Below are positions 13,636-35,800 of a DNA stretch of 45,429 nucleotides, piece by piece. The stretch's first letter is position 1, and each line of letters begins with the position of its first letter. A program made the translations under genes and the position numbers. Source of the DNA: Saprospirales bacterium (GTDB taxonomy: Bacteria > Bacteroidota > Bacteroidia > Chitinophagales > Saprospiraceae); contig PAAY01000054.1 of the NCBI GenBank assembly GCA_002698985.1, positions 1 through 45,429 of the forward strand. Reading direction: 5' to 3'. The notes beneath the pieces are model-generated. The model ran no database searches and was not told where the DNA came from. It saw only the letters and a program-made list of their open reading frames with translations.

Positions 13636-15099
13636 TCAATTGGACCGCCAAAAGTACGGTGTTAGGAGCACCAGGATGGTAAACAATTCCAATCGGCCGA
13701 GCAACATCAGGAACGAAAGGCCCCATTTTGCCGAAGGAGAGAGCCAGGCAAAGTTGTCAACCGGGCCTACCTTACCGATGCCCGGCCCCACGTTGCCCAG
13801 AGAAGTGGCTACAGCCCCCACCGATGTTTCAAAATCGTAGCCCAACAGGCTCATGAAAACGGAACCGGCCAAAAAGATCATCATGTACAGCAGCAAAAAG
13901 ATGATTACGTGGGTAATGATTTTGCCGGCCACCATCTCGCCGTTGATCTTGAGCGGAACGATGGCACGAGGGTGTACGAGGCGCTTGAATTCCAGAATGG
14001 AGTTTTTGAAGAAAACCAGGTGCCTGATGAATTTGATGCCACCGGCCGTTGAACCTGCACTGGCACCCAAAAACAGCAAGATAAAACACAACATGGTCAG
14101 TGCCGGTGACCAGGCCGTGTAATCAGCCGACACATAGCCTGTAGTGGTGATCAGCGATATGATCTGGAAGGCACTGTCACGGAATGCCTGCTCGAAACTT
14201 GCGCCTTCCTGCCCCTGCTGTATGTAAAAGACCGACACGGTGAAGATGGCGATAAAACCGAGCACCGTGGCGGCATAAGCCCTGAATTCGTCATTGTGCC
14301 ACACCTTCCGGAACTTTCTTTTCAAAGCCATGTAGGTGATGCTGTAGTTCACCCCGGCCAGGAACATAAAAACGATGATGATGTATTGGATTACCGGAGA
14401 TTCAAAAGCGGCAATGCTGGCGTTGCGTGTTGAAAAACCGCCGGTGGCCATGGTAGTCAGGGCATGGTTGATGGCTTCATAAAAGCTCATGCCGGCCAGC
14501 TTGAGCAGCAATGCCTGCAAAGCTGTCAAACCCACATAAATCAACCAGAGCCGTTTGGCCGTCTCCTGGATTCTCGGGTGAATTTTATCTGAGGTTGGCC
14601 CAGGTGCTTCGGCGGTGAACAACTCCACACCACCTATGCCCAACAATGGGAAGATGGCCACGGTAAGCACGATGATGCCCATTCCACCGATCCATTGCGT
14701 CAGGCTGCGCCAAAACAAGATTCCCTCTGGTTGCGCCTCGATGTCGGTCAGAATGGAAGCGCCGGTGGTGGTCATTCCCGACATGGTTTCAAAAAAGGCA
14801 TCCGTGAAGGAAGGGATGGCACCACTGAGCAGATAAGGCAGGGTGCCGAATGACACCATGGCCAGCCAACCGCTTGCTACGATTAGAAAGCCATCCCGGC
14901 GGGCAATTTTTTTCTCTGCATTTCTGACGGAAAAAAAGATAAGCGCCCCCAATGCAATGCAAATCAAAGCGGATCCCAGTATGGGCCAATGATCTCCGGA
15001 ACCGAAATAAAAAGAGAATGGCAAAGGGAGCAGCATCATGCCGCCAAGCAGTGCCAGCAGGACTCCGTGTATGCGCAGAATTTGTTTGGTGTTGATCAT
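13636..15099 (-). CDS. trkH: TrkH-family potassium uptake protein
   Basis: TrkH is the membrane-embedded, ion-conducting subunit of the Trk/Ktr potassium uptake system. The 487-residue protein shows the fourfold pore-loop design: MSGMTTTGAS (about 106-115), LTTMATGGFST (about 215-225), ISLITTTGYVS (about 316-326) and ATSLGNVGPGIG (about 431-442), each with the selectivity-filter glycine, plus about ten hydrophobic helices. The GASAGSTAGGIK segment in the third repeat is also typical. It begins 27 nt after the trkA stop, so the channel and its regulatory subunit are translated from one message. Confidence 0.96.
   Translation of the reverse strand: MINTKQILRIHGVLLALLGGMMLLPLPFSFYFGSGDHWPILGSALICIALGALIFFSVRNAEKKIARRDGFLIVASGWLAMVSFGTLPYLLSGAIPSFTDAFFETMSGMTTTGASILTDIEAQPEGILFWRSLTQWIGGMGIIVLTVAIFPLLGIGGVELFTAEAPGPTSDKIHPRIQETAKRLWLIYVGLTALQALLLKLAGMSFYEAINHALTTMATGGFSTRNASIAAFESPVIQYIIIVFMFLAGVNYSITYMALKRKFRKVWHNDEFRAYAATVLGFIAIFTVSVFYIQQGQEGASFEQAFRDSAFQIISLITTTGYVSADYTAWSPALTMLCFILLFLGASAGSTAGGIKFIRHLVFFKNSILEFKRLVHPRAIVPLKINGEMVAGKIITHVIIFLLLYMMIFLAGSVFMSLLGYDFETSVGAVATSLGNVGPGIGKVGPVDNFAWLSPSAKWGLSFLMLLGRLELFTILVLLTPYFWRSN
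13649..13656 (-). promoter_or_regulatory. -7-like element ahead of coaX
   Basis: The minus strand reads TACTTTTG, an exact TAnnTTTG match, inside the last codons of trkH and about 49 nt before the coaX ATG. With no -33 partner it may only be a secondary promoter or chance. Confidence 0.3.
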
Positions 15100-15126
15100 T
15101 CTTTCGTCTCAATAATAAGCAGGCGC

Positions 15127-16464
15127 TTAATTAAAAAGCTGCTCCACCTTCTCGATGGCATCCGGCAAGGCAAAAACGATGGCCTTGTCATTCAGTTGAA
15201 AAATGAAATCCCCGTTCGGAATGATGCCCTGCTCTCCTCTAACCACAGCCGCCACAGTGGCGGTTTTCGGGAAATGCAGGTTTTTGAGTGCTTTTTTGGT
15301 CAGCCTGTTTTCTTTCGTCACAACGAATTCGATGACCTCGGCATCCACCCCATGCATGGCTGTGATGGCTTCCACTTTTCCTTTTCTGACGTAGCGGAAA
15401 ATGTTGTTGGCCGCAACGAGCTTTTTGTTGATCAGGGTGTCCACACCAATGTCCTGTGAAATGCGGATGTATTCCTTGTTCTCAACTTGGGCAATGGTTT
15501 TGAACACGCCGTTGTGTTTGGCGGTGAGGCTGGCAATGATATTCGTCTCGGAGTTGGGAGTCAGGGCGATGAAGGCGTCCATTTGGCTGAGCCCTTCCTG
15601 CTGGAGCAGGTCAATGTTGTCCGGCTTTCCGTGAATGATCAAAGAATTGCTCAACTCTGCAGCCAGTTCCTTGCACCGGTCTTTGTTCTGCTCTACAACG
15701 GTTACATGGTAGTCCTCTTCGAGCAAGCGAGCTGTCTCCAGTGCAAGTATGGAGCCACCGATGATCATCACCCTCTTGATGTCCCGCTTTTTGGCACCCG
15801 TCACCTGCTCCACCCTGCTTACATGACCGGGGAGGGAAACGATGTACACGTGATCATTTGGACGCAAGAGCAAATCACCGTGAGGGATAAGCGTTTGGCT
15901 GCCCCGCTGAACCGCTATCACACGGAGGTTCTGATAAGTCTCACCACCGAGTTCTTTCAGTTTGTGAAAGGCCAGGGGAGAATCGTCACCAATCGTCACG
16001 CCCGTCAAGATGATCTTACCGCCTTCAAATTCAAACAAATCGGTAAAGGAGCAGCGTCGGACAAGCCGGTGTATCTCTTTGGCTGCCAGCAGATTGGGGC
16101 TAAAGATGTTTTCGATGCCCAATTCGCTGAAAATTTCTCGGCTGTATTCCGAGACAAATTCAGTGTTGCTGACACGGGCAAGGGTATTCTTTGCCCCCAT
16201 CTTCCGGCCCAGCACGGCCGTTACGAGGTTGGTGGTTTCGTTTGCAGTGACCGCCAGCAGCAGGCGTGCTTTGCTGACTTCGGCTTCTTTCAGAATGGAA
16301 ATGGAAGATGCGTCACCCAGAATGGTGAGAACGTCCAAATGCTGAGCTGCATGCTCCAGAATGTCCGGATTGTTGTCAATCAGGGTGATGTCCTGGTTGT
16401 TGTAGCTCAAAAGTTCGGCAAGGTGAAAACCAAGATCACCTGCCCCTGCGATGATTATTTTCAT
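15127..16464 (-). CDS. trkA: Trk system potassium uptake protein TrkA
   Basis: TrkA is the peripheral cytoplasmic gating subunit that binds NAD(H) or ATP/ADP and controls TrkH. The 445-residue protein has the full double arrangement: a first Rossmann domain beginning IIAGAGDLGFHLAELL (3-18), a first TrkA-C domain (about 140-225), a second Rossmann domain starting at about 231 and a second TrkA-C domain ending the protein. The second nucleotide loop reads GGSILALETA rather than GxGxxG, suggesting weaker or altered binding in that half. The ATG at 16464 follows a -7 element and heads the operon. Confidence 0.96.
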   Translation of the reverse strand: MKIIIAGAGDLGFHLAELLSYNNQDITLIDNNPDILEHAAQHLDVLTILGDASSISILKEAEVSKARLLLAVTANETTNLVTAVLGRKMGAKNTLARVSNTEFVSEYSREIFSELGIENIFSPNLLAAKEIHRLVRRCSFTDLFEFEGGKIILTGVTIGDDSPLAFHKLKELGGETYQNLRVIAVQRGSQTLIPHGDLLLRPNDHVYIVSLPGHVSRVEQVTGAKKRDIKRVMIIGGSILALETARLLEEDYHVTVVEQNKDRCKELAAELSNSLIIHGKPDNIDLLQQEGLSQMDAFIALTPNSETNIIASLTAKHNGVFKTIAQVENKEYIRISQDIGVDTLINKKLVAANNIFRYVRKGKVEAITAMHGVDAEVIEFVVTKENRLTKKALKNLHFPKTATVAAVVRGEQGIIPNGDFIFQLNDKAIVFALPDAIEKVEQLFN

Positions 16465-17352: not shown

Positions 17353-19569
17353 TCATTCGATCCACCAGCGCAGCCCGACATAGGCTCTGGCGCCCACCAG
17401 CGGCGCCCAAACCTGCATGGCATCGAAGTGTTCGCCGAAGGGGTTGTCGAAATCGATGATGGCGTGCTCCTGCCGGTAATCGGTCAGATTCTCCCCGCCC
17501 GCGTACAATTCCAGGTTTTTGAAGCGACGGGTCACCTGTGCATTGAAAATGGTGTAAACGGGTGTGTTTCCGCTGAATTGGTCTTTGAATTCAGCGGGCA
17601 CCTGATGGTCGTCGGCAAAGCGCTGGCTGCCAACGATCTGAGCGTTCAGATTGAACATCCAGTTTTCTGACGGGGTCTCGTAGTCAACGGTAAGCAATGC
17701 CCGGTGCGGAGCATGCAGGGGTTTCTGCCGGAAGCCATCTTTGTAGTCGATTCTCACGTCGTTGTACTTCCAGATGGCCTTTACATCCAGGCCTTCCAGC
17801 AGTTCGTAATTCAGGGATACCAAAAGGCTGTTGGAACGGCTGCGACCGTCGAGGTTGTAGAACAGCACGGCGCCATGCTCGTATTCCATGTCCATCACTA
17901 CCTGCTGCTCAAAGCGGGTGTGGTAGGCGTCAATGACCAGTTGGAGGTGTTTGTGGCCAATGTCAAAGTTCTTCGTGAAATTCAGGCCCACATTGGTGGC
18001 CTCTTCGATATCCAGCTCTGTTTCGAAGATGAGGTGGCGGGAACTGGCCAGCACACTCAGGTTTTCTGACAGCACCTGCGCCGTGCGCCAGGCCTTGCCT
18101 GCACTGAAACGCAGGATTGTTTCTTCATCAAAGTTGTACTTGATGTTCAATCTCGGGGTGAACAGCAGCCCGTACCGGTTGTGGTGATCGAGGCGGGCTC
18201 CGGCGATGACACCGATTTTGTTCCAAAACCCTTCGCCAACGTGCGGTTGATACAAATACTCGGCAAAAACGCCGGGCAATTTCTCCCTACGGCTCAGGTC
18301 CTCTTCATCGAGCATTTCTTTGTAATCGTCGTACTGGTAACTGGCCCCGAGGTTCCATTTGTGGTCCTCATTGGCGAAAGCCGAAGAAAAGACAAGGTTG
18401 GCATAGGCCGAATTCTGCGTGCCGGTGTACTCAGAGAGTCCGAATCGGTTGGCGGTTTTGTGACGGGACAGGCTGTAAATGAACCCGATGGAACTATGAT
18501 CATTCGCCAGGCCCAGGTAGCCAATCTTGCCGAAGAGCTCGGCCCTGTCATTCTGTTGCTGAATGGTGTAAGGCAGTGTGCCGTCGGGTAACAGTGCTGC
18601 TATCTGCCCGCTGCTCCTTTCGTCGGAAACGACATGCAGGTTGAGTTGCGAACGCAGGAACTCTCCACGGTAAAAAGTGCGGAACAAACCAATCAGAGAG
18701 GTTTTCTTCGGAAGATCGGTAAAGGTATCGCCGTTTTTATCGAATTCACCACGAACTGTGCTGCCGTGCAACAGCACCCCGCTGGACCACTCATCGTTCC
18801 ATTTGTGGTTCAGGTGGACGTTGAGCTCTCCCCGCTCCGTTGTGGAACCAAAGGCATTGATGAACAGCGGCTTGTCCTGCCAGGGCTTGGCCAGCTCAAC
18901 ATTGATCTGGCCGGCAGCACCTCCATAGCCGCTCTGCACCGTGCTGGAACCCTTGGAAATCTGAATGCCCTGAATCCAGGTGCCAGGAATGAAATCCAGC
19001 CCAAGCGGGGTGGCCAGCCCGTAGAGCGTAGGCCGTTTTTCGAGCAGCATCTGGGTGTAAACGCCCCGAAGGCCGAGCATCTGCACCTCTTTGGCGCTGG
19101 TTACGGCATCCTGGATGGCAACATCAACGGCACCCGTGGTTTCAAAACTTTCGGCCAGGCTGCAACAGGGTGCCTTCCGCAATTCCTTGCTCGAAACATA
19201 CTCCAGGTTGCCGGTCTTCAGGGTGGAAGTGTATTGATCTTTGGCTCCGGCAGTCACCTCCACGGTGTTCAACTCCACCACTTCCTCCACCAGGATGAAC
19301 AGTGAGTCTTCTTCCGGCCAGACCTCTACGAGAGACGGCTCGATGCCCACATACTGGACCAGCAGCCAGGCAGTGTCCGGGCGCCTGGCCAGCCAGAATT
19401 CGCCGTTTTCGTCGGAAACGGTGCCCTCGCCGCTATCTTCCCATTGCACGGTGGCACCGATCAGGTTCTCGCCGTTTTGGTTAAAGATATTTCCATAAAG
19501 GAGCTGGTTTTGCCCCATCAAACTGATAGCCGATACAAGTCCGGCCATTATTAGAAGTGCCTTTTTCAT
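17353..19569 (-). CDS. TonB-dependent receptor with Cys-Cys plug motif
   Basis: TonB-dependent receptors import scarce nutrients across the outer membrane using energy from TonB/ExbBD. The 738-residue protein has a signal peptide (about 1-19), a carboxypeptidase-regulatory-like beta-sandwich (about 20-100), a plug domain (about 115-230, including VQMLGLRGVYTQMLL and ISKGSSTVQSGYGGAAGQI) and a 22-strand-type barrel ending in Trp-Trp-Ile-Glu. The plug contains RKAPCCSLAESFET with adjacent C135 and C136, a motif I associate with a receptor subgroup found with metal-handling genes. The ligand is not known; copper or another soft metal is an inference. It follows the cysteine-rich gene by 89 nt. 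Confidence 0.92.
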   Translation of the reverse strand: MKKALLIMAGLVSAISLMGQNQLLYGNIFNQNGENLIGATVQWEDSGEGTVSDENGEFWLARRPDTAWLLVQYVGIEPSLVEVWPEEDSLFILVEEVVELNTVEVTAGAKDQYTSTLKTGNLEYVSSKELRKAPCCSLAESFETTGAVDVAIQDAVTSAKEVQMLGLRGVYTQMLLEKRPTLYGLATPLGLDFIPGTWIQGIQISKGSSTVQSGYGGAAGQINVELAKPWQDKPLFINAFGSTTERGELNVHLNHKWNDEWSSGVLLHGSTVRGEFDKNGDTFTDLPKKTSLIGLFRTFYRGEFLRSQLNLHVVSDERSSGQIAALLPDGTLPYTIQQQNDRAELFGKIGYLGLANDHSSIGFIYSLSRHKTANRFGLSEYTGTQNSAYANLVFSSAFANEDHKWNLGASYQYDDYKEMLDEEDLSRREKLPGVFAEYLYQPHVGEGFWNKIGVIAGARLDHHNRYGLLFTPRLNIKYNFDEETILRFSAGKAWRTAQVLSENLSVLASSRHLIFETELDIEEATNVGLNFTKNFDIGHKHLQLVIDAYHTRFEQQVVMDMEYEHGAVLFYNLDGRSRSNSLLVSLNYELLEGLDVKAIWKYNDVRIDYKDGFRQKPLHAPHRALLTVDYETPSENWMFNLNAQIVGSQRFADDHQVPAEFKDQFSGNTPVYTIFNAQVTRRFKNLELYAGGENLTDYRQEHAIIDFDNPFGEHFDAMQVWAPLVGARAYVGLRWWIE

Positions 19570-19658: not shown

Positions 19659-20063
19659 CTAACAAAGGAAGACCTGGATGACCGACAGGAGATCGTTGCC
19701 CGAAGGGCGATGGAGAGAAAGAAAATTATCCGGAAGGGTTTGAGAAGAAGTGGATTCGACCTTTGGTAATGGAGGAAAAGAAAGGATCGGAATCAGTGCC
19801 TTGGTTGTTATCAGGCTCTTTTCCTTCGTCAAAACAAGGCTCAAATCTGCCTTGAGGTAAATGATTTTGCAATCCGCACAATCAGTTGCCCCGGAGGCAT
19901 CCAGGCAACCACCGCTTTGACATGGATCGTCAGGACAAGCCAGTGAGGCAACGAGCTGATCCTTGCAATGGCAGTAAACCTGGTGAATGGGCACCCCCAC
20001 TCCACCGATGGTGAAGAGCAGCAGGAGGCCAATGGCCAGGATATTTTTCCGGTGCTTTTTCAT
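19659..20063 (-). CDS. HYC_CC_PP-like cysteine-rich small exported protein
   Basis: The 134-residue protein has an N-terminal hydrophobic segment (about 8-26) with a basic start, so it is exported or membrane-anchored. Eight cysteines follow (31, 33, 43, 48, 53, 62, 65 and the last residue, 134), with HQVYCHC at 27-33 and FPPLP at 96-100. The layout resembles the HYC_CC_PP family, although the Cys-Cys pair is absent and the match is loose. Such proteins sit next to TonB-dependent receptors in Bacteroidota and are suspected metal handlers; function is unproven. The frame extends to 20210, but the basic-hydrophobic signal starts at 20063. It directly precedes the receptor gene on the same strand. 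Confidence 0.75.
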   Translation of the reverse strand: MKKHRKNILAIGLLLLFTIGGVGVPIHQVYCHCKDQLVASLACPDDPCQSGGCLDASGATDCADCKIIYLKADLSLVLTKEKSLITTKALIPILSFPPLPKVESTSSQTLPDNFLSLHRPSGNDLLSVIQVFLC

Positions 20064-20071
20064 TTGAGTCA

Positions 20072-20079
20072 CAAAGGTA
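20072..20079 (-). promoter_or_regulatory. -7 promoter element of the cysteine-rich gene and receptor
   Basis: TACCTTTG on the minus strand is an exact TAnnTTTG match only 8 nt before the ATG at 20063. If active it gives an almost leaderless message. Confidence 0.5.
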
Positions 20080-20157
20080 ATCATGCAAGAATGATTCCCG
20101 ATTGTCGATCGAAGTTTTGTCGGCTCAACGCAACGGAAAAACCCTTCAAAAACGCAA

Positions 20158-20190
20158 ACAGCTGACAGCACTCGGAGTGCTGTCAGCTGT
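20158..20190 (-). terminator. Perfect 16-bp palindrome, terminator of the fusion gene
   Basis: ACAGCTGACAGCACTC (20158-20173) and GAGTGCTGTCAGCTGT (20175-20190) are perfect inverted copies with one central base. On the minus strand it lies 35 nt after the stop of the fusion gene and is followed by TTTGCGTTTTTG. A run of eight A flanks it on the other side. The very small loop is unusual for a terminator; the central pairs would have to open. Confidence 0.7.
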
Positions 20191-20225
20191 AAAAAAAACT
20201 TTAAAAACAACTAGCAAAAACCTCT

Positions 20226-22616
20226 TTACGACGACGTTCGACTGAAAGCAAAGCGGCGGACCATGGTCACTGCCAGGTGCATGCCGATGCCGAACAGCGC
20301 CCAGAAGATCATCCGGGCACGGCGGATGAGGCCAAAGGTGAGTCCGAGTGAAGTGCTGTAACCGAGAAAATCCAATGCGGTGGAAATACCTGCCTCATTG
20401 ACACCTATTCCCTGCGGGATGATGACGAACAAGGTGGCACTGGCAGCAATCAGACCCGCCACAGCTACCAGCTCGATGACCGACGGTTCAAAGCCAAGCA
20501 GGTAGAAAATGGCGTAGATCTCCAGCAGGTTGAACACCCTGCCGGTAAACTTGAACAAAAAAGCGAGGAAAAACCTGCCCGGAGGGGTGGGCTCATTCCG
20601 GAAGTCCTCAACTATTTGGAGCTTCTTCAGGAAAAAGCCTGCAATTTTCGATGGTGCAGATGTGAGCGCCAGCGCGATGATGCCAATGGCTGCCACACCA
20701 AACACGATGGCAAGCACGGTCAATGGCACACGGTAAACCGCATCCACCGGAACAAAAATGAGGGTCAGGCTCACCATTACCGAAGAAAACAACATACCGG
20801 TGATGGCGTGGATGAAGCGGTCGGTCACTACTGCCCGGCTGGCCGTTTGCCAGTCCAGCCAATTGGTCAGGTGTTTGATTTTGAAGGGCTCACCACCCAG
20901 ACCGGCAGCAGGAATGATATTGCCATAAGCATCACCGACCATCTGGTTGTACAAGAGGTCGTGGAAAGGCACTTTGCCCCGCACCAAAGTGCGGATGCAC
21001 ATGGTGTTGGCCAAAATCCACAGAATGGCAATGCTGAATACGAGGAATACCTGATTGCCCACCGCAGACAGCGACTGTGTCACCACCCCAACATCCATCT
21101 TCATGATGAGGAGGGTCAGGATGACCACCCCCAGCAAGTAAAAAACGATGGGGTCGATTCTGGCAAAAAGGCTTGCTCCTTTCTCTGCAAGGGTGGCTGC
21201 ACGGATGGAACGGGAAACCCAAATGGCGTTGAACGTGATGCCGATCAACGCTACCCAAAACATGGCTTCACTCAGGAATGCCGCCGTAAGTATGAAAGCC
21301 ACAAAGGCCAGCACATCCCGCTTGCTCAGCTGCTGCACCAAACCGAAAGCCCAGCGCGGCACCCTGTTGCGCAAAGGCATTTTCCGACGGGAAGTCAGGT
21401 CATTGGCCGTGCGCTCCCTGGCCATGCCGAAGGCCATCATCTGACCCAGCATGTAAATACCCAGCGCAGCAAGTATGATCAAAGCAAAAAGGTAAACTTT
21501 TGAACCCGTGGCTTTCCAGGCGCTCACGCCCAGGGCCCCGAAAAAGAAGAAATAACGGAAATGCCCCGCCAGCTCTGCATACCACTCGCCAAAGCGGGAA
21601 GTGCGCAGGGTAAGCCTTGCCAGCTCGCCGTCGCTGCCATCCAGGATGCTGGCAACCTGAAACAAAAAGGCACCCAGCACGATGAGCGGATAATTCGCAG
21701 TGCCTGCAAACCAGGCTCCTACCAACGACAAGATCAGGGTAATGGTAGTCAGCCAGTTGGGGTGAAGGCCCCAGTTGGCCAGCAACATGCTCAGGCGGGT
21801 GGAGAAAAAACGGTTGAAATTGCGGCTAACCCAGCCATCGCCCGGACGGCAGAGGGTTTGCATCAAGCGGCGCTCGGCCTCGGCTTTCATGTCCGGATTG
21901 TCAACGTCTTGCCAAAAGGGCTTCTGAAGCCGGATGGCCCTGACGCCACTGTCATCGATGAAATGCTGTACGATGTGCGAAACGGAGGTGGCACCTTCGG
22001 CAACTTTATCAGCCACACGCTTGCCATAGCCTTCGGGGAAATAAAACAGACCAATATCCACCAGGTCGTAGTCGTCGATCTCTTTCCCGATGTTGCCGAT
22101 GAAACCCTTTTGGGATTTCACCTTGGTGGCGTCATCCATGTCGAAAACATCGTTCAGGTTGGGATCGCAGGCCAGTGCCGGGAGCTCAGGCGTCTGCAAT
22201 GCCTTGCTGACGAAATTCTCTATGGTATCAACGGAAAAGATGTGATCGGACATGGCCAGCAGGAATGGCCCCTCGAAACCAGCGGCCGCAGCGCCAAAAG
22301 AAACGCCATTGCCTTTCTCGTAATCTTCGCAAACGACGTATTCGATGTCCAGCCCTTTCAGCCGGGGCAGCGCCTCCATTTTCGGAACGATCTGATCCCG
22401 GTACGCACCCACACTGATGCGAAAATGTTCAACGCCGGCCTTGTTCAGGGTAAGAATGGCTCTTTCCAACAGGCGCAGCCCACCAACTTTCATGAGGACC
22501 TTCGGCAATTGCTCACCGTTTTCACGGAATCGCTGGCTTTTGCCGGCGGCCAGGATCACCGCATTGCGGACAGGAGAAAAACGCTGAGAAGTTGTTATCT
22601 GTGTAGCTGCGTTCAT
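20226..22616 (-). CDS. Three-domain fusion: nucleotidyltransferase + CDP-alcohol phosphotransferase + LPG-synthase-type flippase
   Basis: The 796-residue protein joins three modules. Residues ~17-245 are a sugar/polyol-phosphate nucleotidyltransferase (LAAGKSQRF 22-30, PKVL 38-41, MSDHIF 122-127, FWQDVD 234-239) close to archaeal inositol-1-phosphate cytidylyltransferases. Residues ~265-480 are a membrane CDP-alcohol phosphotransferase with DGSDGELAR (326-334) and G343, but the canonical late Asps are replaced by Ala347 and Gly351. Residues ~485-790 are an AglD/MprF-like transmembrane domain (GNIIPAAGLGGEPFK 565-579, IIPQGIGVNEAG 732-743). Domains 1-2 resemble the archaeal bifunctional di-myo-inositol-phosphate enzyme; domain 3 suggests product translocation. 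A headgroup-lipid or polyol-phosphodiester role is inferred. Start at 22616 fits the N-terminal domain. No partner enzyme is adjacent. Confidence 0.9.
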   Translation of the reverse strand: MNAATQITTSQRFSPVRNAVILAAGKSQRFRENGEQLPKVLMKVGGLRLLERAILTLNKAGVEHFRISVGAYRDQIVPKMEALPRLKGLDIEYVVCEDYEKGNGVSFGAAAAGFEGPFLLAMSDHIFSVDTIENFVSKALQTPELPALACDPNLNDVFDMDDATKVKSQKGFIGNIGKEIDDYDLVDIGLFYFPEGYGKRVADKVAEGATSVSHIVQHFIDDSGVRAIRLQKPFWQDVDNPDMKAEAERRLMQTLCRPGDGWVSRNFNRFFSTRLSMLLANWGLHPNWLTTITLILSLVGAWFAGTANYPLIVLGAFLFQVASILDGSDGELARLTLRTSRFGEWYAELAGHFRYFFFFGALGVSAWKATGSKVYLFALIILAALGIYMLGQMMAFGMARERTANDLTSRRKMPLRNRVPRWAFGLVQQLSKRDVLAFVAFILTAAFLSEAMFWVALIGITFNAIWVSRSIRAATLAEKGASLFARIDPIVFYLLGVVILTLLIMKMDVGVVTQSLSAVGNQVFLVFSIAILWILANTMCIRTLVRGKVPFHDLLYNQMVGDAYGNIIPAAGLGGEPFKIKHLTNWLDWQTASRAVVTDRFIHAITGMLFSSVMVSLTLIFVPVDAVYRVPLTVLAIVFGVAAIGIIALALTSAPSKIAGFFLKKLQIVEDFRNEPTPPGRFFLAFLFKFTGRVFNLLEIYAIFYLLGFEPSVIELVAVAGLIAASATLFVIIPQGIGVNEAGISTALDFLGYSTSLGLTFGLIRRARMIFWALFGIGMHLAVTMVRRFAFSRTSS

Positions 22617-23885: not shown

Positions 23886-26800
23886 TCAGGGCAGTCCGTG
23901 GTAAAGCACGTAATTGGCCAGGTGCTGGGCATTTTCAGGATTGGCCAGAATGGCATAGACCAGGATTCTGGAGCGATCGTTACCGGGGCCCTGGTAGATG
24001 CACTTGCCATCCAGGTTGAAGTCTTGAGCCAGGTAGCCGGGCAAAATGAAATTGGCCAGGAACTGAACATTGGATGGGGCGAGCAATACTTTTTGGAACA
24101 GCGCATTCACATCGTTGTCAGGTCCCTGGAAAATCACCTTCGTGTCGCCGTTGAGGTCGCCGGGCCACATCACGGTTTTTCCTTTGTACAGTGATTGCGA
24201 ATGGCTACCAGTCGTCGGCGTGTTCGGGTCGGTAAAGTCGATGCTCGTCACGTCCGGCGTCAGCAAGTAGGGATTGGCGGTCATCACGCCGAGGTGGTTG
24301 CGGTGGCGTACGGCCACGTAGTAGTTTCCACCCCTTACTTTTCGGAACTTCACATAGCTGATGCCATCCAGATCCCGCACGTCGCCGTCGCGCTGGAGCA
24401 GGGCGGCTTTGGTTGCGACGATGGAATCCGGCACATCTGCCGGGCGCAGTTCTATCAGCACCCAGTCAACCGGCGCATCCTGGCCGGTAAAAAAGGCCAG
24501 CCCCGGATCCACCAGTTCCTGATCCGTCAGCGAGGGCGGCGGTGTCTGCCCGGTTGGCACATCGCCGATGTGGTGCAGGAAGGTGAGCTTGGAATAAGGC
24601 TCTATGACCGGCAGCCTGTTCTGGAACCGCAATTCATCGTGCATGAAGCCGGTGGTATCTACTTCCACCAGCGCCCCCAGCAGCATCACCTTGATGTCGA
24701 GCGTCACCCCGACGCAGGCGTCGCTGATGTAGGGATCGCAAGGATCCCGGGGGTCGGATTCACCCGGATCCACCAGACCGTTCAGGTTGGGGTCTTCCTC
24801 CCCGTCGTCCAGCGGGTCACCGTCGGTGTTGGGGTTCAGCGGATCGGTCTCACCGGGGTTGACGATGCCGTTCTGGTTGGCGTCTTCGATGCCGTCCAGG
24901 ATGCCGTCGCCGTCGGTGTCGGGATTGAAGACGTTGGTCTCCGTTCCGGAAGTGACCAGGTTGTGGTCTTTGGCCTCGGTGATGTCCGGCAGGTTGTCAT
25001 TGTCGCTGTCGGTATCCAGGAAGTTGGGGATGCCGTCGCCGTCGTCGTCGATGTCCGGATTGCCGTTGGGCATGGCAAAGCTGCCGTCCGTTGCGGAACC
25101 GAGGTAAGCCGTAGAATCCGCATCCGTGCCGTCTTCCGGCCGGCCGTCATTGATAGCTCCGTCGTCTTCGGTAATGATGAAGCTGGAGCTGCCCGGCAGG
25201 TCGTGCCAGCCATCGCCGTTGGCATCGGTCCAGTTGTCGATTTTGCCGTCGCCATTGGAGTCGTAGCCTCCCAGTCCGGCTTCCATGATGTCTTTCAGCA
25301 AATCGCCGTCACTGTCCAGGTCCACGAAGTTGGGCCGGGCATCGCCATCGGCATTGGCACCGATGTAGGCAGAGCCATCGCCGTTTATGTCGTTGGGTCT
25401 TCCATCTAATGGTGGCAAGTCTCCTTCTGTGACGATGAGCGGGTAATTGTTGTAATCGTCGTGAATGCCGTCGCCGTTGGCATCGGTCCACTCACCCGGG
25501 TTATCTATTTTGCCGTCGCCATCGGTGTCCACCCCACCCGATTCGATGAGGTCGGCGATGCCGTCGTTGTCGCTGTCGGTATCGAAGAAGTTGGGCACCG
25601 CATCACCGTCGTAGTCCGGTTTGTCCGAAGGCTTGCCACCGCTGTATTCCGAACCATCGTATTTGACGATTGGATTGGTATTGTCCTCAGCCCCTGGGAG
25701 TAGGTCGTCGTCGGAATCGTAGATGTTCACGAAACCATCTCCGTCGGAATCCGGCATGGAGGCAGGGTTGCCCGGAACGGGATAGTCAATCAAACCGTCG
25801 CCATTGGTATCGATGCCACCGGCTTCGATGATGTCGGGCAGTCCATCGTTGTCGCTGTCCAGGTCACGGTAATTGGGGATGCCATCCTGATCCCGGTCGT
25901 TGATGAAGGAGCCGGGATCGTGGGCAGCAGATGCCTGTTCGGAAGGATCGCCGTCGTTGCCGTCGTAACCGTAGGCCATACCGTCGCCATCGTGGTCCCA
26001 GCCCGGCGTTCCGACGATGTCAATCACTCCGTCCCCGTCTTTGTCGGTGTAACCGGCTTCTATCAGGTCCGGAATACCGTCGTTGTCGGAATCACGATCC
26101 TGGTAATCGGGCACGCCGTCGCCATCCGTATCGCCAGTGCCTTCCACCAGATCCGGAATGCCGTCGTTGTCGTCGTCGTGGTCGAAGTAATCCACCACCC
26201 CATCGTTGTCGAAGTCATCGGTGGGTGCCACGAAGATGTTCTGCACTTTGGTGGTGGTATTGCCACAGAGGTCGGTCAGGGTCCATGTTCTGACGATGAA
26301 GCCCTGGCAGTTTACGAAGGCTGACAGGTCGTCGGAATAAGTGGCTTCAAGACCACTGGCGCAGTTGTCCGTTTCGTCGGTTACATCGCCCATGAGTGTC
26401 AGGTCGGCAATGTTTGCGTCGCAAAGGATGGTCTTGTCGGCCGGCACGGTGAACTGTGGCGGCGTAGTATCTCGCAGGATGAAAGTCCGTGTCAGGTTGG
26501 TGGTATTGCCGCAATCATCCACGATGGAATAGGTGCGGGTATAAATCGTGTCGCTGGCGCAATTGAAATCCGGAGCGTCATCCACGATGACCAGTTCCAC
26601 GGTCTGGTCGCAGTTGTCCACGGCCACAATTTCGTAGCCCTGGCTCAGCGCCGGTGGCACGGCGTCGCACTCCAGCGTCTGATCGAAAGGCAGGCTGCCT
26701 TCCACCACCAGCCAGTTCACCTGCTCGGCCGGGTGGGCGCCGTCCTGGTATTCCCATTCCTCCAGCCAGATGTCGAAGCTGTTGGCGGTGACGTTGCTGA

Positions 26801-29800
26801 CCCGCACGTTGACGGGTTCGCCGTTGTTTTCGCTGATGCCGCCGCTGATCACCACGGGGTTGTGGTAAGTGTGCTGCAGGGTAACGGTGACTTTTCCAGT
26901 GCCCAGACTCAGGCTGCCGGATTCGCCAATCACCTCACCGGTGTTGTTGACGAAATTACCGGCCTGTGCCAGGGCCAGGTATGACAGCACCTCCTCGTCG
27001 TGGGTATTTTCCACATCGTAAGAGAGCTCTTCCTGCAGGAAGATGTCCGCATCCGTGCCGGTCAGGTTGCTGTAGCGCACCGTGATCGGGTCCGGTTCAT
27101 TGCTGGTGGAGACAGCAGCGATGAACAGCGGTTGCGAAGCGAAGGGAACAGTGAATGACTGGTTGGAGACAATGCTCGTCAGCAACCAACTGCTGGCTTC
27201 GAAGCCCTCTGCCCCGTTCAGCGCTCCCGGTTCGATGGCCACCCAGGCCACCGATTCCACGCCGTGCAAACCGTCCTGCCCCTCCTCCTCTGCAATGCGC
27301 ATCTGGAACTGGGTAGTCGAAACGTTTCGGACCTTGACATTGGCGGCAATGGTGTCGTTGGCGCTCACCAGTTGGGTGAGCAGTATGGGCTGTACGCTGA
27401 ACTGGATGGGCATCTTCACCGTCTTCCAGAGCTGCGAGACGTTTTCCATTACCCCTGCCACCATCTTTTTGCCATTGGGCAGGGTGTAGATCCGAAACAG
27501 GTCCGGCGCCGTGTTGTCCTGGATGGTGATGACCTGTTGGTCGGTCGCAGCGTTGCTGCAATAGTCACTCGAACTCCATACCCTCAGCATGGTATATGAA
27601 TGCAAGGAACAAGAATCCAGCCCCTGGGTAGAGATTTCCTCAAGCCCCAGCGATACGGTCTGGCAGTTTTCGAAGACCTCCACGGCCTCTGCCAGCGGGG
27701 TCTGGTCGTCGCAACTGATGGTGATGTCCGCCGGCACGTTCTGGATGACCGGCAGCTCGTTGTCCGAAAGATCGATGACCACCTGGGCCGTGTCGCAGCA
27801 GCCGGTCTGTTCATTGCAAACCACATAGGTAAACTCATCGGTTCCGCAATAGGTGGTGTTTGGCTGATAGATGAACTCTCCGTCCGGCTCGAAGTCCAGC
27901 GTACCGTTCACCGGCGGCACCAGCAGGCTGAACACCGGATCCACCAGGTTCAGGTCGTTGGCACCGACGTTGGCGGTGTACGGGAAGCCCGGGCAGGCCG
28001 CATCGTAGAAGTCATCCTGCAGGTCAGGCTTCTGGATGAGGCGCATCTGCACCGTGTTGGAGTACAGCCAGTTGCTGCACGGCGCCCGCCGCACTTTCCG
28101 GCGGTATTCTGTCATCGTCGCAATGGCCGGCGGGTCGTAAGTCTCCGAAGTGGCTCCGGCAATTTCCGACCAGGCAGACCAGACGCCCATGTTGTCTTTT
28201 TCCCGTTTTTCCCACTGCCAGGTGATCGTGCCTCCTACCCCGCCAGACGGGCTGCTGCCGGATACCAGCGGCGCCGGATCGTAAACGGAGCAAAGCTCCT
28301 GATCGGCCAGAATGGTTCCGCCGGAAGTGAAGTTTGAGACGATGTAAATGGTCGTGTCCAGGAAGCCCGTGCAGGCTCCCTCGGTAATGGTCAGCGCAAT
28401 GGTGGCCGGGCCGCCGTTGGCAAAGGTCACGTCATGCGGACCGGCACCGGTGGCCGAGTTGGGCGTGGCCCCGTTGCCGAAGGTCCAGGAAAAGCTGGGC
28501 GAGCCGCTGCCCGGCGTGGCCTGGAAGGTCACCACCGTACCCGTGCAGGTTTCCGAAGTGGAAACACTCAAGGTGGCCGATGGCGGCGGATCGGAAAGCG
28601 GGAAGGCTCCCAGGTTTTCCGAACAAAGGGCACCGCTGTAGCGCACAGCCACTTCGTAAATGCCGGCACCCAATCCTGTAAAGGTACTGTCGGTTTGCCA
28701 GGTCAGGCCACCGTCGATGCTGTAATCAGCCGTGCCACCGGGTGGCAAATCGGCGTGGATGACGAGCTGGCCGTCGGTCGCTCCGCAAACGGAAGGATCG
28801 GTTTGGTCCACACCCACGAGAGTAATCTCTGGCCGGATGGTCAGCTGCACCGTATCGCTGCTGCCACAGCCGAGTTTGGTTACATTCAGGATGACGGACT
28901 GGCCGTTGTTGAGTACGTTGTCAGGCACGTCATAGCTCACGCTGTGCGGGCCGGCACCCACTGCCGTCAAAGGTGTGGCGTAGGTGTCAAAGCTCCAGGT
29001 GTAGGCCACTCCCGCTCCTGCATCGGCAGCTTCAAAGCTGTAGGCTTCGCCTTCGCAAAGGGTGCCGGAAGGATAGGTCTGTATGCTTGCCGCCGGAATG
29101 GTCTTCACTGTTTTCGTCACAACGTTGGAATTAACCCAGCTTGCACAGGGGCTGCGCCGGGCTTTCCGCCGGTATTGGGTGGTCTGGATGATGAACACCG
29201 GATCGTGGGTCAGCCCGGTGGCCCCAGGGATGTCCGTCCAGGTGAGCCCGCCGTCGGTACTCAGTTCCCACTGGTATTGCGGCCAGCCCTCAAGGCCTCC
29301 GCTGGCCGCACTCACGGAGCTGATCAGTCCCGGGTCGTAAGGGCCGCAAACCGACTCGTCACCGGCGACGCTGCCGGCATCGGTGAAGTTGACCACCACC
29401 ATTTTCGTCACGGTGTTGGACCACAGCCAGGGCAGGCAAGGCGACTTGCGGGCGCCCCTGCGGTACATGGTCGTCTGGTTGATGACGCCGGGGTCGTAGG
29501 TATCGCTGTTGGAGTTCAGGATGTTCGTCCAGGTGGCACCGCCGTCGGTGCTCTTCTGCCAGACGTATTCCTCCGTTCCGACGCCTACCCCACCCGAGGG
29601 CTCCAGCGCACTGGCTATGATGCCGGGGTCGTAAATGCCGCAGTTCTCCTCATTGCCGACGATGATGCCGGCATCGGTGTAATTGGTAACCACCTCTTTG
29701 ATGACGGCCATGGAGTTGGTGAAAGCTGAACACCTTGAACGCCGCACGCAACGGCGGTAGTGAGTGGTCTGGGTGATGGCGGGCGGATCGTAGGTGGCTT

Positions 29801-32800
29801 GCTCGGCTCCCGGGATGATGTTCCAGGTGATGCCACCGTTGGTACTCTGCTCCCAGCGGTACTCCAGTGTGCCACCCCCGCCTGAGGGCGGAGCCGATTC
29901 ACTGATGAGACCTGGATCGTAGCCGTTGCAGCCAATCTCATTGCCGGTGATGGCACCGGCCGAAGTGATGTTCTTACAAACGGAAACCCGGTAGTCTTCC
30001 ACCTCGCCGTTCACGGCAACCCCTCTGAATGCAAAAGTGGGCGCCATGGGCTGGTCGGGCAGCAGGCGGAAGCGGAAGTAGTAATCCTCCCCGCCCTCCA
30101 GACTGGTTCCGAAAGGTATGTCGAAATTGAGTGTGAATGTGCCGGAAGACACGGCCTGGTTGGCCACCAGTTCTCCGGCGTCGCCAAAATCGCCGTCGTT
30201 GTTGAAATCGGCAAAGCCAACCAGCCAGCCGCTGCCCGTGACGGTGATGTTGGCAGAGCCGCCATTGCCGGAGGCGACGGAACCCACCGTCCAGGTGGCC
30301 GGATCGGAAAAGACCACGCCATCCTCATCGGCACCCGCACTGTCGTCACCAAGCGCATCGGCCTGAAGTACCGGAACATTCTCTGCATCCACGCCTGCAC
30401 CGAGGTACAGGGTCTGTGGTGTCGGAATGCGGTGTACCGGCCCGCTCGCCGAGCCTGCAATCTGCGTAGGATAGGGTGCCGGCAGGTCGCCCAGGTCGAA
30501 GGGTTCGCTAAAGCTGAAGCCGAAATCAACGTCGGTCACTTGCGCAGCGACACTGAGCTTCTGGTAAGCATTGCTGGCCGCCTCTCCCACCTCGAAGGCC
30601 GGGGTGTCACCCAATGAGGTCGTCATGGACGTGAGCGACAAGGGTGGCCCCGATTTGCCGACGGAAACCGTGAAAGTGTCAGGCGGCAGCGAAAGGAATT
30701 CGTAATAGCCGTTGCTGACGGGCGTCACCTGCCCGAAGAAGGTACCGTGCTGGTCGTAGAGGTAAACAGACACTCCTTCGGGGAAACTCTCGCCGCCGGT
30801 GTTGCAACGGCCGTCTTCATCGAGGTCGAAACAGATGGTTCCGGAAATGGAGTGGGTGTAGTTTGGCCGCAGGCCGAAGTCCACATCCAGGTCGCAATCG
30901 TTGCCGGCGGGGCACCATGCGTTGCCGTTGCTGGTGGTGCTGCCCTGGAATATGACCACATCCATGCTGAAGTCGTTGCTTCCGTCCGGCTCATAGGTGG
31001 ATACGTGGTTGGCAGGGGCCAGCAGTTTTACCTGCCAGGTGCCGTCGGGCAAATTGCCGAAGGTGTAAAAGCCGTCGGCATCGGTGTAAGTGGTGTCGTG
31101 GTAGGTATTGGGGCCGTAGTTCTGCCCACCGATGGTAACCCCAGTGAGGTTGGTCAGAGCCACACTCATGTTGGGATAGCCATTCTCCGTGGGGTCTTTG
31201 GTACCATTGCCATTGACATCCAGCCAGACGAGGTCGCCGATGACGCCCAGCGGCCGGTAACCGAAATTCACCCCGGCGTACATGGCCCCCATGCCGAGCC
31301 AGAAATCCTCCGCCCGGTTGTCACAACCGGCGTTCAATATGTCGTAGTTCGGGTCGTTGGGGTCCAGCGGAGAATAGCATGGAATGCCGTCGGTGCTGGG
31401 ATCGGCTGTCAGTACCATTCCCGAAGGCAAGGTACTGGTGACCACGGCCACGTCGTAATAGCCGGGACGCAGCCCCGTAAAGCGGAACATGCCGATGGGA
31501 TCGGTTCCGGTGCCGTCGGCAACGGTGACCGTATCGATGGCATTGGCCAGGGTGCAGGGTTGGTTGCTCTGCTCGCACAGGCAAACCTGTACGCCTGCAA
31601 TGCCGGTCTCGTTGAGGTCCATGGTGCCGTTGGCATTGTCATCCCGGAAAATGTAGCTCTCTACTGTGCCGGCCATTGTGAAGCCAAAAGCAATGGAAGA
31701 GAGCGGACAAGAGCCACAGCTCACGCCGTTGACGGCGGTCAGTTTGCCGTTGTCCAGGGTGGCCAGCACTTCCGTTGAGGTGGAGGGGATGGCCCGCTCA
31801 CCGAATCCGTCCAGCGGCAGGTCTTCGTCGTATTGGTTCACCCGGATGCGGTAGGTGCCATCGGGCAGGCCGCTGAAGGTGAAAGTGCCGAGGCCGCCGG
31901 AGACGCCGTTAAAAATGAGGACATAGGCGGTGTCGAGGTTGAGGTTGGCCTCTATCTGCACCTCGATGCCGGCCAATGGCGGTTCGCCCGCTCCGGGGTA
32001 GCCGTTGGCATTTTCGTCGAAAAAGACATAGCCCCGCACGGTTCCTTCCCCGGTCACCTTGTACCCAAAATCAAAACCCGGGTAATTGCTGCTGCCGTCT
32101 ATGGAGGCTGCCGTGGCTCTGCCGTCGCAAATGACGCAGATGGCAAACTCGTCGGGGTCTTCGGTCTGTGCCGGGAAGATGGGCAGGGAGCCCTCATCCA
32201 CCACGATGACGTAGTTGCCTGCACGCACACCCGAAAACTGGTATAGGCCGCTGCTGTCGGTCTGGATCATTTCGTTCAGGGGCTCACCCCGCTGCACGAT
32301 GCCGTCGGCATTGAGGTCGGAGTAGAGGCGCACATAGACATTGGGGATTCCCTCATCACCGGCGTTGGGGAAGGCATTGCCGAGCCAGTCGTAATAAACC
32401 AGGCCGCTGATGGTGGCATTGCCCGCAGGGTGAAGGGCAAAATTGTTGTTGTTGCTCTGCTCACCGGGGCCCACGATGAGGCTGATGTTGTTGTCGTTGC
32501 TGCCATCGCTCTCTGATGGGATGGTCCAGGTTAGCCCTCCGGGCAATGAACCCATATCAACGGAAATGTTGCATTGCTGGCCGGGTGGCACACCAGTGAA
32601 CTCGTACTGTCCATCCGGTCCGGTAACTGCCGTCGGGCAATCCACACCCGGTGTGCAAGTGCCGTCCTGGCAAATGACGGTGACGCCTGGCAGGGGCACT
32701 TCGCCCTCGTCCCAGACGCCGTCGCCGTCCAGGTCTTCCCAGATGAAACCGGAAATGATTTCGTCCACGGTGTAGCCGAAGTTGATCTCGTAGTGGTCGT

Positions 32801-35800
32801 TGCCAATGCCGACGATGGCGAGGTTTTTCATTTTATCATTGTCAGATTTCCATTCGCTGTCGCAAGTGGAGCACTGACCGTTGGTCTGGTCAGGGTCCGC
32901 AGTCTGACCGTTCAAGCCAGGAACGGTGGAGGTGAGCACTTTTGCATAGTAGTAGCCATCGGGCAATCCTCTCAGCTCATAGGCTCCGTTGGCATCGGTG
33001 GTGTCGGTGGCCATGAGGTCCCAGGTACCGCCATTCTGGTTGTGGGTGCAGGGTTTGTTGCTGTTGCCGGGGCTTGTGATGAGGTCGCCGTTTGATTTTT
33101 TACATCCGTAAATTTCGACGACAACTCCCTCCAGGAAGTAGTCCGTGTTGCTTTCATAACCGTATTCGCCTTGCCAGCCGTCGCCGTCCTTGTCGGCAAA
33201 AACGTAGCCCCTGACAGCGCCTTTGTTCAGGATCTCCACGCATTCAGGGTCTTCGTCAACATTGACGAGAAGCCCGTCGCCGTTGAGGGCCTGGTCGCTG
33301 CGGGCGGTGGTGGTGGTGCCGTCCACACAGATCTGCTCCTGCAAAGGCACGCACTGGCAATCGCTGAAGTTGTTGAGGATGGAGCTCTCCGGCTCGTTGG
33401 GTGGCATGTTCGGTATATCGCCAAAGAGGGCACCTCTCCGGCTGAAGATGTTGGCCGTCCAGGTTCCAGCCAATTGCTGAATCTGGTGCGCATCGTCCAC
33501 CCAGATGGTGTTGTTGCAGCCGTCCAGGTAACCGCTGTTCTGGAAGTCCCCGTTCATCGTTTTGATATCCGTTCCGCAAAGCAGCAAGGTGCCCGTCGGG
33601 TCGTTGATGACGCCTGTAGAAGCGACGATCTCGCTGTTGTACACCTCCATGTTGCGGGCACAACGGAAAACCCCCGTTTCGCCGGCATCCAGGATTCCGG
33701 TTATGTGGTGGTTTTCGCCCATATCGCCGATTTCCGCACAGACATTGATGAGGATGTTCTCCCCGTTGTTTCCGCTTTCCAGGCGGAAATCACCGGTCAC
33801 GTTCATGCAGACGTTGTTGAGGTAGAGCTGGCCCTGGTTGTTGGTGAAATTGGAGAGGGTGGCGACACCCGTTGGGTTGAAAAAGCCGTTGGCAGCCTCA
33901 TCGCCGCACTCGATGGTGCAGTCGTGGAAACACAGCAGGGTATTTCCGGTCATGGTGATGTTGCCTTTGGTGCGCAGAATGGCATCGCTGAAAATGGCGC
34001 AGCCGCCCTCCTCGATGAGGAAATCACCATCGAGCACTACCAGTTCCGGGCCATCCACCACCAGCAGGGAGTTGTAGTTGAGTACCCGGAGGTTGCCCGA
34101 AGGAAGAGTGACCTTTCCGGAACCCCGTATCCGTACGAATTTATTGACATAGGTGGGGTCCACATCGGGCAGGATATCTGCCCAATTGACATCGCCGTTG
34201 ATGGTGACATCCCGGTAATAACCGTTGTTGGGAATGCCGCAGTAGTTGTAGGCATTGGGCACAGAGTTGCACTGCGGGGCGGTGGTGTTGCAAGTGGCAG
34301 TGGTTGCCTTCACCGTCTGAAAATCAATGGTCAGGCTTTTGGTTTGTGCCGGGTAAAGCGGCCCCAGGTCGTTGAAATAGAGCTTGTTGGCCACCACGCT
34401 GTCGGGCAGTTGCGAAGCAGAGACAAATTTGAGTTTTGAATTGTCGAATTCGTATTCCAGGGGCAGTCGTTCGATCACCTTGCCACGGCTGGCAGGTTCA
34501 CCTTCCGTTCCGTTGGGGTCGGGGCAGCAAACGGTGGTCACCCGCACACCCACAGCATCGATGTAAACGTGGGCTCCGTCACTGCCTCCCACTTTGATAC
34601 CCTCGATGGTCAGTTTCCATTCCGGATCAAAAAAGCTCCAGTCCCAGTTTTGGTACTGGGTGATATCCACTACGATGAACCCGAGGTAAGGCACCCCGAC
34701 GTAGTCGTTCAGGCTTGGGGAAGTGCTCTTGCCCCAGGCCGGATCCGGAAAAACCACCGTCTGGCCGTTTTCGAGTTGGATACTGGCCTGCAAGCGGTCG
34801 TTGTTAACGGGGTAATCGGTGCAAAGCGAGAAGAGGATCTCCACCTTCTCGATGGTTCCGTTTTGCGGACCAAAATCAAAGTTTTTGAGGACGGCCTTTT
34901 TGTCCCAGGAACCGGTGTGGTAACCCAGTTGGTCATCGGGTGGGCCGGTCATGTTCTGGGTGTTCACATTGTAAGTGGTGGAAGGATCCACCGCCCCTGC
35001 CCAGGCGATAACGGTGCTGGAGTTGTCGCTGTCTTCGGCCTGACTCCGGTTCTTCAGGTCCACGGTGAAGCTGACCTGCTCGTTTTCGAAGACAGAAGCC
35101 GGGCCTTGCAGGGTATTGGTAAGTTCCAGCAATGGTGCAAAGCCGAAATCAGCGTTGAGCGTTCCGCCGCCATTGCTGGTGAAAGGAACAGTGAGCGGTG
35201 TGGTATTGGTCCAACGCTCCGGCAGGTCCGGATCTTCGGTGTCAACAGTAATAATGTATTTCCCGTCGGGTAAATTGGCGAAACTGAACTCCCCGTTCGC
35301 ATCCGTCAGGACGGTATCGGCCAGCACGTCGGCCTCGCTGATGACGGAGTTGGAATCAACATCCAGGAAGATTTCCACCTTTACCCCGGGTATGCCCTCC
35401 TCGCTGCCATTCTGAATGCCGTCGGCAAAAACGCCGGTTGGAATGACCACGGCATCCAGCTCGAAATCATCACCGGAGCCGGTCAGTTCTTCGAGGATGA
35501 TGAAGCGGGTGTCGGTATTGGCCACCACATTGGTGGTGACGAAATCGGTTTTTGATGTGGTACTGGGGCGGAATGGGTTCTCGATGTGATTGCCACAGGT
35601 CACTCCCTCGTAAATTCTGATCTCTGCTGAGCCATTGTCGGAATAGCTCGGCTTCCTTCGCCAAACGAGTTGGTACACCTGCCCGGCCGGGATGGTCTGA
35701 CCCAGATCGAGGATGATGTAATCATAGGAATCGTATAGCTGGACATATTGCCCGTCAGGTGCGCCCAAGGCCCGCCAGGTGTTGCTAACACCATACGAGC

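Follow-up and report, generated by a model that had tools for sequence, protein, structure and literature searches.

The closest described relatives of the protein reported here are the archaeal bifunctional IPCT/DIPPS enzymes, represented by the A. fulgidus enzyme 4mnd and by the model NF041135, with which it shares the order and homology of its first two modules and the intact nucleotidyltransferase (NTP) motifs. It differs from them in lacking D3 and D4, the last two aspartates of the CDP-alcohol motif, in carrying a fused third membrane module and in scoring far below the NF041135 cut-off. In the AF2299 type (4o6m) a cytidylyltransferase-like N-terminal domain is combined with a complete CDP-alcohol motif, and our protein is the opposite case, with an LPG_TM module in addition. 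According to the available excerpt of PMC4634129, D1-D3 of the motif hold metal and D4 is the likely base, a D-to-N change at D4 nearly abolished the activity of a mycobacterial CDP-alcohol enzyme, and the solved enzymes named there are homodimers.

A putative alternative inositol-lipid cluster of Bacteroidetes, as outlined in the excerpt of PMC9246714, comprises NTP, CDP-OH, HAD and MIPS genes with an LPG synthase nearby. Our protein draws on the same families, but these are separate genes in the cluster and one chain here; HAD and MIPS are absent beside it, and its genome additionally has a BT_1523-like PIP synthase. The flippase-like LPG_synthase_TM/HpnL-like proteins (PF03706, TIGR03476) resemble the third module, which however scores below the HpnL cut-off (66.5 vs 195.65 bits for TIGR03476). 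Three modules of the same pathway families are also fused in genome G179 (L080:886-2982, 699 aa, NTP+CDP-OH+HAD beside MIPS), but that protein has a HAD phosphatase as its third module and keeps a complete CDP-alcohol motif. Neither the present fusion nor a D4-lacking CDP-alcohol family is described in the titles and abstract openings surveyed.

Domain architecture of protein A

The window, i.e., the whole 45,429-nucleotide stretch of Saprospirales DNA that was analysed, contains gene A (positions 20226..22616, minus strand; genome G000), recognized from its ORF translation, Pfam matches and homologues as encoding a three-module membrane protein of 796 aa. Module 1 is cytidylyltransferase-like (NTP_transf_3; residues 17-256, positions 21849..22568, minus strand) and was delineated by Pfam, motifs and the solved relatives 4mnd and 2xme. 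Module 2 is a degenerate CDP-alcohol phosphotransferase (residues 257-475, positions 21192..21848, minus strand; Pfam and motifs), and module 3 is a flippase-like LPG_synthase_TM domain (residues 485-796, positions 20229..21164, minus strand; Pfam and the context of relatives). A first-pass annotation had proposed these three modules and named the failure to detect one of them as grounds for rejection; the domain search recovered all three above the Pfam gathering scores (NTP_transf_3 at 18-143, 50.6 bits; CDP-OH_P_transf at 284-394, 35.4 bits; LPG_synthase_TM, PF03706, at 493-769, 90.7 bits vs a cut-off of 33.4). Structure prediction from an alignment of six sequences gave a poor model (pLDDT 43.8).

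The proposed kinship to archaeal di-myo-inositol-phosphate enzymes was confirmed as well. NF041135, the NCBIfam model of the Thermococcales bifunctional IPCT/DIPPS, matches residues 18-454 (1.5e-61), and in PDB the A. fulgidus bifunctional enzyme 4mnd ranks first (residues 17-379, 1.3e-37). The NF041135 score of 208.7 bits stays below the equivalog cut-off of 580 bits, which is also missed by the intact bifunctional enzyme adjoining MIPS in G029 (296.6 bits). Module 1 shows the homology and motifs of the 2xme/4mnd N-terminal domain: LAAGKSxR, PK, MSDH, D187xG and WQDVD are intact, and 13/13 tested nucleotidyltransferase positions are invariant in every A sequence covering them.

Beside A, positions 17353-19569 of the window encode a CarbopepD_reg/TonB-type outer-membrane protein with counterparts near A in 5/10 other loci of the genus (55-56% identity), and a small weakly similar gene (19659-20210) lies between the two. 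A TM2-domain gene is found near A in several loci of the genus. Further along, the minus strand carries an ORF of 4511 aa (23886-37421), of which 504 residues were tested with no Pfam match.

Distribution and selection

Five relatives of the fusion were found in named genome contigs of MAGs labelled Saprospiraceae, Bacteroidota or Bacteroidetes; they are 91%, 62%, 62%, 62% and 65% identical, the last one being cut by a contig end. Within the GTDB genus of the window, gene A is present in all 14 genomes, own included. Seven of them have the three-module form (cut by contig ends in G002 and G012), and the other seven have modules 1 and 3 only, in frames of 596-642 aa, with the G008 copy split over two contigs. 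No match spanning modules 1 and 3 was obtained from 26 other genomes of the family and order, nor from 394 other Bacteroidota genomes in a search limited to two scored candidates per genome at E 1e-15, which could miss a distant fusion. Phyla beyond Bacteroidota were covered for A by a pattern scan of named contigs.

Between G000 and G003 the dN/dS values are low in all modules (module 1 0.053, module 2 0.060, module 3 0.042; dS near 1). The purifying selection on module 2 implies that it does something, at least structurally, while the two-module forms show it to be dispensable. A whole-gene dead copy is ruled out by these low values and by the conservation of modules 1 and 3. Compared with G009, G007, G010 and G002, module 2 of G000 is the least conserved part (52-53% identity vs 70-75% for module 1 and 62-71% for module 3), and the same applies to G012 (36% vs 65% and 55%). 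Between G009 and G010 module 2 is intermediate (80%; module 1 85%, module 3 78%).

The degenerate CDP-alcohol motif

The altered motif of module 2 (residues 326-351, positions 21564..21641, minus strand; motif alignment) reads D326..D329G330..A333R334 x8 G343...A347...G351. Thus Ala347 and Gly351 stand in place of D3 and D4, just as the first-pass annotation had described, and module 2 does not pass the eight-residue CDP-alcohol motif test. In the seven three-module forms, own included (order: G000, G003, G009, G007, G010, G002, G012), the D3 position is occupied by A,A,E,E,E,G,Q and the D4 position by G,G,S,G,S,G,G, i.e., Asp is found at neither site in any of them. Homologues mostly keeping both late aspartates would have contradicted the annotation; none keeps either. 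D1, D2, A, R and G are retained in 7/7 forms and the Gly after D2 in 6/7. Since the 91% identical homologue has the same residues, sequencing error or frameshift is ruled out as the origin of Ala347 and Gly351. Glu348, once suggested as a compensating base, is likewise ruled out, because its position reads E,E,Q,R,Q,K,R and is not conserved.

The case for inactivity of module 2 builds on the fact that D3 and D4 are both lost and that half of the genus is without the domain, from which we infer that it no longer transfers phosphate. Of the roles considered at the outset, one polypeptide activating, attaching and translocating a product does not agree with an attaching module that is without D3 and D4 in all seven forms and missing altogether from seven genomes, and the alternative of a structural relic is favoured by the same observations.

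Companion protein B and a proposed complementary domain loss

No biosynthetic partner adjoins gene A, as had been noted earlier. A candidate partner was however located elsewhere in the same genome, on another contig (C43:87860-89104). This companion protein, B (398-433 aa), occurs in 13/14 genomes of the genus in 18 copies; it was not found in G005, a genome 80% complete. The CDP-alcohol motif is complete in 18/18 copies (17 aligned and that of G013). In the N-terminal domain, the LAAG, MSDH and WQDVD positions are lost and the NTP catalytic positions are not conserved. The N-terminal domain was nevertheless matched to the NTP profile by hhalign (96.4%, E 1.1e-9, 156 columns), with none of eight control families exceeding 1.0%, and subsets of the NTP set gave 93.9, 78.2 and 87.2%. 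The profile of this domain found no convincing match in PDB. Judged by the profile comparisons, the N-terminal domain of B is a remnant NTP domain.

The divergence rates of the two proteins mirror each other: in B the N-terminal domain varies most, and in A module 2 is usually the least conserved. The B proteins of G000 and G003 are 69% identical in the N-terminal and 91% in the CDP-alcohol domain, and the dN/dS values of the two domains in two other pairs are 0.281 vs 0.033 and 0.226 vs 0.045.

In the tree of CDP-alcohol domains (all trees were midpoint-rooted) the three-module forms of A, here A3, and B join (86/83) apart from the intact bifunctional enzymes and two archaeal enzymes, which themselves remain unresolved; in the first tree the divergent B copies G009b and G010b took other positions. 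When modules 1 and 3 were analysed together (13 sequences, the split G008 copy left out), the two-module forms made up one clade (100/99), with G012, whose motif is the most decayed of all three-module forms, as its neighbour (100/100). The tree of the LPG_TM module agrees with this, and in the tree of the NTP module the two-module clade is recovered (75/78) with G012 unplaced. The best reading of these patterns is that A and B would have arisen by opposite losses from two copies of a bifunctional enzyme and that in A motif decay would have been followed by a single deletion of module 2. B may have been inherited already in its AF2299-like state rather than having degenerated within the genus, as AF2299 itself already has a cytidylyltransferase-like N-terminal domain. 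Given that the solved enzymes are homodimers, module 2 of A may have been retained as the half to which B docks.

In none of the loci examined do A and B adjoin; in G009 they share a contig and are approximately 22 kb apart. The surroundings of B differ from those of A and in several genomes include GMC and Gfo/Idh oxidoreductases, glycosyltransferases or a phosphodiesterase. Loci L052 (5976-14905) and L053 contain B together with GMC and Gfo/Idh genes, a free-standing LPG_TM gene and a second, divergent B-like protein, and L052 additionally has a radical SAM gene. The best PDB match of B is AF2299 (88.9 bits vs 56.8 bits for the inositol enzyme). Both the company that B keeps and its best solved relative are points for B serving some other polyol, e.g., with CDP-glycerol, the AF2299 donor, rather than being the partner of A. 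The inositol lipid would then be made from CDP-DAG by a PIP-synthase-like enzyme.

Gly-at-D4 enzymes and the LPG_TM module

Loss of D4 is not confined to A. Among alternative-type clusters, the CDP-OH enzymes examined first have Gly at D4 in 7/7 cases (L123:9942-10889, L134, L135, L137-L140). In a wider search, in which 36/365 genomes matched, Gly was found at D4 in 14 of the 30 loci fetched (L160-L169, L172-L175), with D1-D3 kept. These 14 enzymes form one group in the tree (85/88). An LPG_TM gene lies within approximately 1.5 kb in 12/14 of the Gly-at-D4 loci vs 0/16 of those with Asp. If the Gly-at-D4 enzymes are active, D4 is not indispensable, and since a related family conserves Gly here, the loss of D4 alone does not prove inactivity of module 2.

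It is in this light that a different chemistry, an option already raised by the first-pass annotation, has to be weighed: module 2 might still be catalytic, with the base contributed by another residue or by the fused LPG_TM module. The existence of a conserved Gly-at-D4 family, mostly with LPG_TM nearby, speaks for this part of the earlier proposal, as do the retained motif residues of module 2 and the purifying selection acting on it. D3, however, is kept in 14/14 members of that family and is replaced by four different residues in the seven A sequences; Glu348 is not conserved, and the domain is missing in 7/14 genomes. We regard a catalytic module 2 as quite unlikely. A broader version, in which the D4 base can be lost from CDP-alcohol enzymes that are fused to LPG_TM or encoded next to it because LPG_TM takes over part of the chemistry, fits the Gly-at-D4 family and also A, half of the genus pairing NTP with LPG_TM and no CDP-alcohol domain. 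Counter-examples are an intact-D4 enzyme near LPG_TM in G268 (L136) and LPG_TM beside the intact-D4 B in G009 and G010 (L052, L053), and this version is considered very unlikely.

Inositol context

MIPS is found within the flank of approximately 1.5 kb at 27/29 loci of NTP relatives, from which 5/8 of the sequences behind the MIPS models themselves come; Pfam confirms MIPS in 6/6 other MIPS genes of the set. The 29 loci were fetched from the 33 genomes that had an NTP match, besides the own, in the Bacteroidota search. Intact bifunctional genes are accompanied by MIPS in 3/4 cases (G029, G394 and G179, not G191). Among the 394 other Bacteroidota genomes, eight relatives of the LPG_TM module outside the genus were found at E 1e-9 or better. 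Their clusters contain CDP-OH (8/8), MIPS (7/8), HAD (7/8), NTP (6/8) and Gfo/Idh (5/8) genes, G171, one of the eight, having also supplied sequences for the models. Seven of the clusters look like the putative alternative set of inositol-lipid genes in the excerpt of PMC9246714; one of these (G228) has no MIPS in the stretch fetched. In the eighth (G268) the neighbours of the LPG_TM relative are MIPS, PgpA and a PIP synthase that scores above the cut-off for BT_1523. Beside A itself there was no model match to MIPS or HAD in the window, and the alternative gene set is thus not assembled there.

MIPS is present in 10/14 genomes of the genus, so inositol phosphate is probably available. The search of G000 itself gave no hit to MIPS or to PgpA. 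The two genes adjoin each other in 3/3 sister loci tested (L112-L114), two of which also supplied sequences for the PgpA model, and one assembly gap likely explains the absence of both. When G000 DNA was compared with the MIPS region of G003, repeat-like matches alone were found (40/570 candidates scored). Interspersed repeat-like stretches of approximately 35-290 bases are abundant in the genome (94 matches), occurring at many places in G000 and in L114 of G003 at about 6560-6850 and 14940-15580.

The missing MIPS of G000 is one reason to suppose that the substrate of module 1 is not inositol-1-phosphate but some other sugar or alcohol phosphate; another is position 27, where the intact bifunctional and MIPS-linked relatives have Gly and A has Ser. 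Against it are set the MIPS genes at nearly all loci of NTP relatives, the best solved matches of module 1, which are inositol cytidylyltransferases, and the contexts of the LPG_TM relatives, which suggest inositol independently. We hold a non-inositol substrate to be unlikely.

G000 has two further CDP-OH genes. That at L002:1312-2073 (C68) is close to a BT_1523-type PIP synthase (334.8 vs a cut-off of 350 bits), and the other is PssA-like (99.5 vs 107 bits). The first, together with the MIPS and PgpA pair, means that an inositol lipid could arise from CDP-DAG with neither A nor B, and the MIPS/PgpA arrangement of the genus and the grouping in G268 look like such a route. The PIP-synthase-like gene makes the partnership of A and B less likely and a separate function of B more so. 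If B is set apart, on the other hand, G000 would be left with a producer of CDP-inositol and no user, as both other CDP-OH genes look like users of CDP-DAG. On the whole, B not being the partner of A appears somewhat unlikely.

Proposed division of labour

The reading that we favour, as only just the probable one, is a joint one drawn from sequence comparisons: A would make a CDP-activated headgroup, most likely CDP-inositol, module 2 would be dead, B would carry out the transfer and module 3 would handle the product. The ancestor may have been a bifunctional inositol-1-phosphate cytidylyltransferase/CDP-alcohol phosphotransferase that later became fused to an LPG_TM protein of an inositol cluster. 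Module 1 is predicted to be an active cytidylyltransferase, by its context most likely converting CTP and inositol-1-phosphate to CDP-inositol. Module 2, having lost the third metal ligand and the catalytic base, would persist as a membrane scaffold in half of the genus. The transfer step would be provided by B through its complete CDP-alcohol motif, in a putative partnership with A, and module 3, judging from its family and cluster context, may act on the product or lipid carrier or move it across the membrane.

The complementary split is a more interesting reading than a three-in-one enzyme. Two proteins of one genus share a pair of enzyme domains, of which each has lost the one that the other keeps, and the series from decay to absence is still visible among the genomes of the genus. 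With the Gly-at-D4 family, a standing assumption about CDP-alcohol phosphotransferases becomes directly testable. The joining of a cytidylyltransferase to a flippase-like protein within a single chain suggests that headgroup activation may be coupled to handling at the membrane in the inositol-lipid pathways of Bacteroidota, which are themselves poorly tested.
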